DNA of 32,707 bases from Nitrospirota bacterium (GTDB lineage: Bacteria > Nitrospirota > Thermodesulfovibrionia > SZUA-242). The notes beneath the pieces are model-generated. The model searched no databases and was not told where the DNA came from. It worked only from the letters and a program-made list of their open reading frames with translations. The number at the start of each line of letters is the position of its first letter. The stretch's first letter is position 1. The position numbers and the translations under genes were made by a program. The stretch is from the NCBI GenBank assembly GCA_016212095.1, contig JACRHH010000012.1, forward strand, positions 1 through 32,707. Direction: 5' to 3'. This document shows positions 11,545-29,157 of this stretch, one piece after another.

Positions 11545-12354
11545 TTACTTCTTTGCCTGCGGCGGGGTCGGGATGTTCGAGCCGTGGCACTCGTTGCAGT
11601 TCTGCTGGCCGGTGATGCCGAAGGTTTTGCCCGGCGTCCATGTGGCCTTCGATTCATACTTGCCGTCTTTCCATGCGTTTAGGTCTACCACAAGCTTGTG
11701 GGCAACGCTGGCCGCAACACGGGCGCACCTGTCTTTTCGCTCGGCGCTTGCAAGCGCGAAGCCTGCCTTGTCCATCCATTTTCCGACCGAAACGTGACAA
11801 AGCGGCGAGTTGCTGGTGGTCTGGATTATCGCGGTCTTCTGTTTCGGCTCCTTCGGCGTGAAGGTGGGGAGAGCCGTCTCCGAATACCACTGCATCATTT
11901 CGGAACCGATCTGGTGGCCGTTTTCGCAGTCCGGCCCGGCAATTCTTGGGCCTATGATGAGATTGCTCACAATATTGGCTCCGGCATTCGAGCCGCAAAC
12001 CGTTCCCCATCCGGCCATTCCGCCCTCAAGGAACACGAAGCCGTCAATCGGGAAAGACTTGTACGGCTCGCCGACCTTTTCCCTTAGCTGCCCGAAGATG
12101 CTGCTGATAACGGCGTTCCCGCAGAACACCCTGTACCACTCTTTGTATGCAAGCTCCGCAGTAAAATCCGGATCGAGCTTGACATACGGCCACGGCCATT
12201 TCTCCGTCGGGCCGCCAAGCGCCTCGGCCTGTGACATGAAGCCCAGACCGCCGGAGACGGCTGCGGCGCCGGCGGTGACAAGCGCCAGTTTGCCGGCGCC
12301 CGTAAGCAACGATCTTCTTGACATGCCTTCATCGAGTTTCTTTGTGAATTCCAT
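11545..12354 (-). CDS. Tat-exported split-Soret-type cytochrome c / redox protein
   Basis: The ATG at 12354 follows AGGAGAG at 7 nt; the longer frame lacks a ribosome site. The 269-aa product has a twin-arginine signal (MSRRSLLTGAGKLALV), so it is exported folded, probably with a cofactor. The mature part resembles split-Soret cytochrome c: WPWPYVKLDP, VFCGNAVISSIFGQLREKVG, GGMAGWGTVCGS, SPLCHVSVGKW, DRCARV. Near the C-terminus is one standard haem site, CNECH. Only this single CxxCH is visible, whereas I recall two haems per subunit in the described protein. The remaining cysteines (VFC, TVC, DCENGH, LCH, RCA) could hold an Fe-S centre or an atypical haem. An electron-transfer role in the periplasm is likely; the partner is not evident. 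Confidence 0.6.
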   Translation of the reverse strand: MEFTKKLDEGMSRRSLLTGAGKLALVTAGAAAVSGGLGFMSQAEALGGPTEKWPWPYVKLDPDFTAELAYKEWYRVFCGNAVISSIFGQLREKVGEPYKSFPIDGFVFLEGGMAGWGTVCGSNAGANIVSNLIIGPRIAGPDCENGHQIGSEMMQWYSETALPTFTPKEPKQKTAIIQTTSNSPLCHVSVGKWMDKAGFALASAERKDRCARVAASVAHKLVVDLNAWKDGKYESKATWTPGKTFGITGQQNCNECHGSNIPTPPQAKK

Positions 12355-12519
12355 GATTTCTCTCCTGATATTGATCCTGGTATAACGCGGAATCCGCGCA
12401 GTATAAATCTTCACTATACCTGCCAAACCTCGTTGACGGGGAGGTTGAGGCATGCAACTCTTTCACAGGGGATAGCAATCATCCGCTTTCCCTTGAAAAG
12501 TAGAACGGGATGTGAAGGC

Positions 12520-12939: not shown

Positions 12940-13407
12940 ATGCGCAAAGCACGTGGCGTAAAAACGATATTATTCGCGGTCATGCTTGGATTGGCCGCAA
13001 TCCTTTCAGGATGTTCACATCCGGCGTTCGCAGATGCGAACGTGGTTACGGCGTCCGAACTCCACAGGTTGATGGCCGGGGGAACGGATATTGTCATTGT
13101 CGATCTGCGTGCCGAGCGGAATTACATGGAAGAGCACATTCCAGGCGCAATAAGCATTCCAGCCGACGAAATCGACGATCGTTTTCCGGCATATAAAACC
13201 GGCAGGCTGGTGATCTACTGTTTCAGTGATGGAACTTCGCGTGCCGTATCTTCCGGTCTTGGCGACCCGCCGAACATTAGCGTGCTTGAAGGCGGCATTT
13301 ACGGATGGAAGGCTCTTGGTTTCGATACGGAACGAGGCGGCGTTTGGTCAAGATTTGGAAGTATTACCCGGAGGGCAAAGGATAAAATCGTAATGCTTTT
13401 TGAATGA
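12940..13407 (+). CDS. Rhodanese-domain lipoprotein
   Basis: The ATG at 12940 is preceded by AGG at 7 nt. A signal with lipobox AILSGC follows, so the protein is lipid-anchored on the envelope side. The single rhodanese domain (about 25-130 of 155 aa) has VIVDLRAERNYMEEHIPGAISIP and the active loop YCFSDGTSRA, in which the persulphide-carrying Cys and the loop-closing Arg are both intact. EGGIYGWKALG is the usual end motif. Such domains transfer sulphane sulphur and in some systems handle selenium. A tRNA gene begins 4 bp after the stop, so the two are likely on one transcript. Confidence 0.85.
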   Translation: MRKARGVKTILFAVMLGLAAILSGCSHPAFADANVVTASELHRLMAGGTDIVIVDLRAERNYMEEHIPGAISIPADEIDDRFPAYKTGRLVIYCFSDGTSRAVSSGLGDPPNISVLEGGIYGWKALGFDTERGGVWSRFGSITRRAKDKIVMLFE

Positions 13408-13411
13408 CTTT

Positions 13412-13513
13412 GAGGGGTGCGGGGCTGGAGCCCCTCCCGGTCTGCAAAACCGGCGGCATGGCCGAACACTCGGAAAACGCCATGGTGTGTTCGATTCGCA
13501 CCACCCCTCTCCA
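13412..13513 (+). tRNA. tRNA with selenocysteine-tRNA architecture but anticodon GCA (Cys)
   Basis: Hand folding gives an 8-bp acceptor stem (GAGGGGTG 13412-13419 with CACCCCTC 13502-13509), discriminator T13510 and an encoded CCA (13511-13513). The T arm has 5 bp (13485-13489/13497-13501) with the standard loop TTCGATT, making a 13-bp acceptor/T branch instead of 12. The D arm is GGGGC/GCCCC with a 4-nt TGGA loop. The anticodon arm is CCGGT/ACCGG with loop CTGCAAA, so the anticodon is GCA. The variable region (13454-13484, 31 nt) has a 6-bp stem CATGGC/GCCATG. The branch, short D loop and long variable arm are marks of bacterial tRNA-Sec. GCA and U73 are cysteine identity elements; tRNA-Sec normally has UCA and G73. 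It may be charged with Cys or with Ser/Sec. Confidence 0.85.
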
Positions 13514-28344: not shown

Positions 28345-29157
28345 TCACGAGCCACCCCGCATTTTTTGCTCAATAGCCCGAAGCGTATTTTGAATTTCCT
28401 TTTCCTTTAGTTCGGGGTCAATGTCCTGAATGTATTCAATAGCGGAAAAATCATCGCCCCGCTTTCTATTTTGCGGCGGTTCAAGCGCCTCGATTAGCAG
28501 TGCCTCAAGTGTTGCGACAAGGCTGGCAAGGGATGTATTGAGGGTGGTTTCTCGAAGATTACCCTCTTGCGTTACATCAAGCAGGCCAAACCATGAAAAT
28601 CGATTCCAGCGACTGCCCAAGCGATCAACCGTATGCTCGAAAAGACGCTTGCCCAGCGGTCGGTCGATGGATCGTCCGACATACACTACTGTGTGATGGT
28701 CGTAAAGAATGTAAATACCTTTCTGTTTTCCGAAATCTACTGGCCTTGAAAGAGCCTGTTGTTTTCCATACATTTTCGGATCGTTGCGCCACACAACAAG
28801 ATCGCGCTGCCAATACATACCGAAGGAGTGAATAATTGAGTCGGATAATTCCACTTCCGAATCAGCAAGCGTTTCTAATATATTTTCTTTGGAAATTGGA
28901 GTTGATGCCGGAATGATTGCTACTGCCGGTGAAGTTTTGAGTGTGAATATGCCTTTACCAACACGCATGAATGGTGATTTTTCACAATCGTGTTTTATCG
29001 ACGCCGACAGTTGTGCATTCACTGTTGCCGCAGGGGTTGCACCGTCAGTTTCGTAGTAGCCACGAGATAATATTTGTTCTGAAATCTCCGTGTAGTGCAA
29101 CGGGTTTCCCGACTCTGCGAGAACTTTTTTTATGGCTTCTTTCCATGACTTTTCCAC
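28345..29157 (-). CDS. HARE-HTH plus GIY-YIG nuclease protein
   Basis: A 270-aa protein starting at GTG (29157), with GGAGG 6 nt upstream. The N-terminal domain (about 1-75) reads SWKEAIKKVLAESGNPLHYTEISEQIL, then VNAQLSASI and RVGKGIFTL, which is the HARE winged-helix domain (segments). The C-terminal half has a GIY-YIG nuclease core: KGIYILYDHHTVVYVGRS, then RLFEHT and TLEALLIEALEPPQNRK with the catalytic Glu. This combination occurs in restriction-like and DNA-sensing proteins. It lies in an accessory stretch with a toxin pair and an antitoxin relic, so a defence role is plausible, though the target is unknown. Confidence 0.85.
   Translation of the reverse strand: MEKSWKEAIKKVLAESGNPLHYTEISEQILSRGYYETDGATPAATVNAQLSASIKHDCEKSPFMRVGKGIFTLKTSPAVAIIPASTPISKENILETLADSEVELSDSIIHSFGMYWQRDLVVWRNDPKMYGKQQALSRPVDFGKQKGIYILYDHHTVVYVGRSIDRPLGKRLFEHTVDRLGSRWNRFSWFGLLDVTQEGNLRETTLNTSLASLVATLEALLIEALEPPQNRKRGDDFSAIEYIQDIDPELKEKEIQNTLRAIEQKMRGGS

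Follow-up and report, generated by a model that had tools for sequence, protein, structure and literature searches.

A Sec-shaped tRNA gene with a cysteine anticodon in a Nitrospirota genome, probably a member of the tRNA-ReC family

The stretch of DNA analysed here (the window, 32,707 nucleotides) carries on its forward strand, at 13412-13513, a tRNA gene that is real and intact. In a cmscan of the window the Rfam tRNA-Sec model RF01852 matched positions 13412-13509 of the + strand with 50.6 bits (E = 1.5e-7), above the gathering cut-off of 47 bits. ARAGORN, run on the same window, did not report a tRNA at 13412-13513, a miss that the long variable arm probably explains. On the basis of RF01852, of a family model (R1, see below) and of covariation in the family fold, the gene is annotated as a putative Sec-shaped tRNA-Cys(GCA) of the selC* type, also called tRNA-ReC.

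The acceptor stem is formed by eight base pairs between GAGGGGUG (13412-13419) and CACCCCUC (13502-13509), and is followed by the discriminator base U73 (13510) and an encoded CCA (13511-13513). The D loop of four nucleotides (UGGA) is carried by a stem of five pairs (GGGGC/GCCCC), and the cysteine anticodon GCA (13444-13446) lies in the anticodon loop CUGCAAA (13442-13448); these features and U73 had been read correctly in the preliminary description. The anticodon stem consists of five good pairs (CCGGU/ACCGG) and then a C.C mismatch at the sixth, and a 6-bp stem (CAUGGC/GCCAUG) can be drawn within the variable segment of 28 nucleotides. The T arm (13485-13501) has a bulge-free stem of five pairs (GUGUG/CGCAC) with one U.G wobble, and the loop UUCGAUU. 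Like a canonical bacterial tRNA-Sec (selC), the candidate thus shows an 8/5 branch, the Sec-type D arm and a long variable arm, but it has GCA and U73 instead of UCA and G73. It also departs from a canonical tRNA-Cys, such as that of its own genome, which has a 7/5 branch and a short variable loop. The body described for tRNA-ReC (acceptor stem of 8 bp, branch of 12-13 bp, long variable arm, tight D loop) is found in full, as is the Cys identity of that family (GCA or UCA anticodon with U73).

Four base pairs upstream of the tRNA and in the same orientation lies a gene for an exported single-domain rhodanese-like protein (12940-13407; PF00581, 49.7 bits), which is probably co-transcribed with it. 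The best NCBIfam match of this protein is NF041203, rhodanese-related (seleno)protein, with a score under the cut-off, and this kinship to selenoprotein rhodaneses is the nearest approach to a selenium gene at the locus; no YedF, LysR_Sec_metab, SelB, YedE or SelD gene was found at the window's own tRNA locus. A sulphur or selenium link through the rhodanese had been suggested from the sequence: its position 4 bp upstream stands, but a conserved partnership does not, rhodanese-type ORFs being present at 2 of the 79 other family loci among the matches listed. On the opposite strand, 11545-12450 encodes a C_GCAxxG_C_C or split-Soret-cytochrome-like redox protein (PF09719, 31.7 bits; NF047622 below its cut-off), and neighbour clustering placed homologues of it near three other family loci among the matches listed (L126, L137 and L174). 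A convergent serC-like aminotransferase gene also adjoins the tRNA, and a search for a terminator or a close promoter for the tRNA found none. Possible defence genes near the tRNA are those for an AIPR-domain protein of abortive-infection type (PF10592; 14848-16530) and for a HARE-HTH protein (28345-29157).

Genome contigs were searched for tRNAs that combine a GCA anticodon with a long variable arm, by a pattern in which base 73 was unconstrained. At least about 80 Sec-shaped U73 tRNAs are among the matches listed, and they come from Nitrospirota, Firmicutes (Desulfotomaculum and relatives), Actinomycetota, Chloroflexota and deltaproteobacteria. The covariance model R1 was built from 65 GCA/U73 tRNAs among the matches listed, the candidate included. 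As one of these 65 the candidate scores 84.9 bits (other GCA/U73 members, 70-94 bits), and the tRNA-Sec and tRNA-Cys of its own genome score 60.5 and 26.8 bits, respectively; UCA tRNA-Secs range from 41 to 64.5 bits. The nearest member among the matches listed, L106 (Nitrospirae), shares 84% identity with the candidate, as against 70% for the genome's own tRNA-Sec and 61% for its own tRNA-Cys; the candidate is thus no recent duplicate of that tRNA-Sec. Known tRNA-ReC members belong to Desulfotomaculum and relatives and to Nitrospirae, and R1 together with L106 connects the candidate with them; Firmicutes relatives (e.g. L133, L134 and L089) share its covariance family. The sequence comparisons are good evidence that the candidate is a new member, in a plain 8/5 form, of the known family of Sec-shaped tRNA-Cys, in line with an earlier pointer to Cys tRNAs that mimic tRNA-Sec. 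Since that family is a known bacterial one, the gene is interesting but not unprecedented.

Folded as a lone sequence, the candidate divides its 13-bp branch into 7+6. This minimum free energy fold was rejected, as covariation favours the eighth acceptor pair: among the matches listed, that pair is Watson-Crick in 62 of the 65 homologues and occurs in four types (AU, GC, UA and CG), and the alternative 7/6 pair forms in 51 of the 65, mostly as G.U. The division into 8+5 given in the preliminary description is therefore the conserved form. In the alignment of the 65 U73 sequences (again among the matches listed), 91.9% of the cells are paired, and covariation is seen in all four helices, the eighth acceptor pair included. 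Double-change cells number 276 as against a shuffled mean of 92.5, a value reached by none of 500 shuffles, which excludes chance; judged from this alignment, the Sec-type 8/5 branch is under strong structural selection. A bulge-free T stem of 5 bp like that of the candidate is present in 45 of 81 U73 sequences among the matches listed.

In the class of the host, Thermodesulfovibrionia, about 69 of 230 genomes have a match within the family score range. Two other genomes of the host's order or family both carry a UCA tRNA-Sec and no GCA one above the thresholds used. Among the matches listed, 44 of the 48 genomes with GCA/U73 loci also have a tRNA-Sec match of more than 66 bits. A class-wide test of association between the tRNA and selA had no power, and co-occurrence at class level proves little, since selA is nearly universal (202 of 230 genomes). 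Four genomes (G078, G079, G157 and G190) have a family-range tRNA and no selA; one of these, G157, is 99% complete and has a 73.8-bit match of the GCA/U73 type with no selA at E 1e-30, and possibly it has retained the tRNA without Sec synthesis.

The host genome (2.97 Mb, 100% complete) contains, beside the GCA/U73 tRNA, its own normal tRNA-Sec with UCA and G73 (L001), a normal tRNA-Cys with GCA (L029), selA (620.9 bits) and one selB, far from the tRNA. The canonical UCA tRNA-Sec, SelA and SelB thus coexist with the candidate, as expected for a tRNA-ReC. There is one cysS, and neither a second selB, nor a special cysS*, nor YedF was found in the host genome. Two formate dehydrogenase genes have an in-frame TGA within the Sec motif R[Y/I]UHSATVA (HCARYUHSATVAG and HQARIUHSATVAA), and downstream of the first Sec site lies a hairpin whose loop reads GGUCU. 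Such a loop is typical of SECIS elements of formate dehydrogenases (FDH), and the hairpin resembles that of E. coli fdhF.

A Sec-like tRNA-Cys of Desulfotomaculum nigrificans was reportedly described by Vargas-Rodriguez et al. in 2018 (RNA Biol 15:471). According to PMC11415595, this tRNA-Cys(GCA) is charged by CysRS, is delivered by SelB and not by EF-Tu, and leads to Cys at UGA codons for Sec. The candidate is likewise Sec-shaped, with GCA, and accompanied in its genome by a canonical tRNA-Sec, selB and cysS; it differs in its acceptor, which begins with GAGG instead of GGGG, and in its Nitrospirota lineage, and, unlike many Firmicutes tRNA-ReC, it has no bulged nucleotide in the T stem. In the review PMC7609411, which cites Mukai et al. 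2017, the selC* tRNA-Cys are characterized by U73, a GCA or UCA anticodon and an 8/4 branch with a bulged A51a, and are placed in Firmicutes, Thermodesulfobacteria, Nitrospirae and Proteobacteria. Those of Syntrophobacterales and Desulfobacterales share with the candidate U73, GCA (in their case GCA or UCA) and the mimicry of tRNA-Sec, but according to the same review they combine the 8/4 branch and the A51a bulge with a linked selB* and sometimes a cysS*, whereas the T stem of the candidate has 5 bp and no unpaired A51a, its lone selB is far off and its cysS is the only one. By its sequence the candidate thus fits the broad family of Sec-like tRNA-Cys and not the strict 8/4-plus-bulge form.

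By analogy with these systems, it is probable that the candidate is a tRNA-ReC (selC*-type), that is, a minor Sec-shaped tRNA-Cys that would place Cys at Sec UGA codons through CysRS and SelB when Sec-tRNA is scarce; the evidence for this mechanism is moderate. If the findings on the D. nigrificans member can be transferred, the normal CysRS would charge the candidate through U73 and GCA, and the long acceptor/T branch would make it a ligand of SelB and not of EF-Tu. SelB would then carry the Cys-tRNA to SECIS-programmed UGA codons, here in the two formate dehydrogenases, where G34 would mispair with A3 and Cys would be inserted when Sec-tRNA is short. Reading of UGA by GCA needs this G34:A3 mispair, which is a point against the mechanism, as are the acceptor pairs A2-U71 and G3-C70, found in place of the minor Cys determinants G2-C71 and C3-G70, and the own locus without a recognised selenium-metabolism gene. 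The earlier suggestion that the tRNA is one more substrate of CysRS, shaped like tRNA-Sec, agrees with the family membership, but is incomplete in that it omits SelB delivery and Cys at UGA. Two amino acids for one codon, set by the tRNA that reaches SelB, would be a rare programmed ambiguity of the code, and this Nitrospirota member has a complete and simple set-up for it, with one SelB, one CysRS and two UGA formate dehydrogenases.

The ORFs around 79 family loci (among the matches listed, that of the candidate excluded) were clustered, and NCBIfam models identified the largest groups as YedF (TIGR03527, 15/16), LysR_Sec_metab (NF040786, 14/14), YedE (TIGR04112, 8/8), SelB (5/5 sampled) and double-cubane reductase (8/8). 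In the DNA around these loci, one or more of YedF, LysR_Sec_metab, SelB, YedE and SelD was present at 40 of the 79, and within 500 bp in 31 of these; with a few such genes per genome of 2-3 Mb, about one locus is the estimated chance expectation. The family as a whole is therefore tied to selenium status, and its recurrent siting near genes for a selenium regulator, a transporter and a sulfurtransferase makes a selenium-shortage role directly testable. We tentatively propose that the GCA/U73 Sec-like tRNAs may be the output of a selenium-status circuit, in which, under the selenium LysR regulator and together with YedE/YedF, selenoproteins would be switched to a Cys form at selenium shortage; the Nitrospirota 8/5 form would need only the ordinary SelB and CysRS and no dedicated partner.

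Two further observations concern these neighbourhoods. One genome (Nitrospira sp. isolate M_DeepCast_200m_m2_046) carries two different GCA/U73 Sec-like tRNAs (L069 and L076), with an ORF of SelB type within 50 bp downstream of each. A double-cubane-cluster reductase gene (NF040772) adjoins the Sec-like tRNA-Cys at nine loci (L069, L078, L080, L083, L085, L093, L094, L147 and L175), at most of which its activator ATPase is also present; we know of no selenium role for this pair.

The alternative that survives best, although unlikely, is an extra Cys isoacceptor of the ordinary kind, which CysRS would charge and EF-Tu would bring to UGC/UGU codons, without any special selenium role. GCA and U73 are indeed the major Cys determinants (PMC9976931), and the host has no second selB or cysS. 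A normal tRNA-Cys is already present in the genome, however, the 8/5 branch is strongly selected, family loci cluster with selenium genes and, according to PMC11415595, EF-Tu does not serve the D. nigrificans member.

Sec insertion at UGC/UGU codons, the other hypothesis of the preliminary description, would require a genuine tRNA-Sec whose anticodon is that of Cys, on which SerRS and SelA make Sec and which SelB delivers. The Sec-like body and D arm, the precedent of a GCA tRNA-Sec in Aeromonas salmonicida (PMC11415595) and the UGC or UGU codons in FDH genes of Betaproteobacteria with GCA/G73 tRNAs (among the matches listed) are compatible with it. At position 73, however, the candidate carries U and not the G of serine identity, its second acceptor pair is A2-U71 and not G2-C71 (PMC9976931), and the host retains a UCA tRNA-Sec with G73 and uses UGA in both of its Sec formate dehydrogenases. 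With U73 and an intact UCA/UGA system, this reading is disfavoured and very improbable.

Equally little probability attaches to a decaying pseudo-tRNA retained by chance, as might be thought from the two other genomes of the host's family, in which it was not above threshold, the mismatched sixth anticodon pair, the 28-nucleotide variable segment and the T-stem U.G: the remaining stem pairs, U73 and CCA are all intact, 47 of the 65 homologues among the matches listed likewise lack pairing at the sixth anticodon position, the U.G recurs at the same site in the intact homologues L080 and L137, and the candidate scores as other family members do. Least likely of all is a regulatory RNA that titrates SelB or reports Cys or selenium status without translation, for although relatives' tRNAs recur directly beside LysR_Sec_metab, YedE and YedF, every functional element of a tRNA is conserved, including the encoded CCA and the anticodon, and the D. 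nigrificans member decodes UGA according to PMC11415595.

Sec-shaped GCA tRNAs with G73 were also observed in Betaproteobacteria (Rubrivivax, Piscinibacter and relatives; L105, L139, L066, L084, L086, L088, L102, L104, L115, L129, L132, L144 and L176). In the Piscinibacter isolate (L105), this tRNA is the sole tRNA-Sec match found in the genome. The FDH Sec position in these Betaproteobacteria is UGC, in one case UGU (among the matches listed), and in FdnG-type FDHs it is followed by a hairpin, UCGCC-GGUGU-GGCGA, which suggests that Sec may be inserted at UGC via a SECIS, as has been reported for A. salmonicida. These tRNAs share the Sec shape and GCA with the candidate, but differ from it by G73, by serving as tRNA-Sec in their own genomes and by the UGC/UGU site; the candidate's host has U73, a separate UCA tRNA-Sec and UGA in its FDHs. 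Three other GCA tRNAs with G73 (L091 from Cloacimonadota, L172 and L173) have a short T stem and, as read, an imperfect acceptor stem, and are possibly further anticodon variants of tRNA-Sec or a different fold. Finally, phage tRNAs with GCA, U73 and a long variable arm were found on viral contigs (L183, L184, L185, L187, L188, L190 and L192); they have a canonical tRNA-Leu/Ser-like body and are distinct from the Sec-like family.
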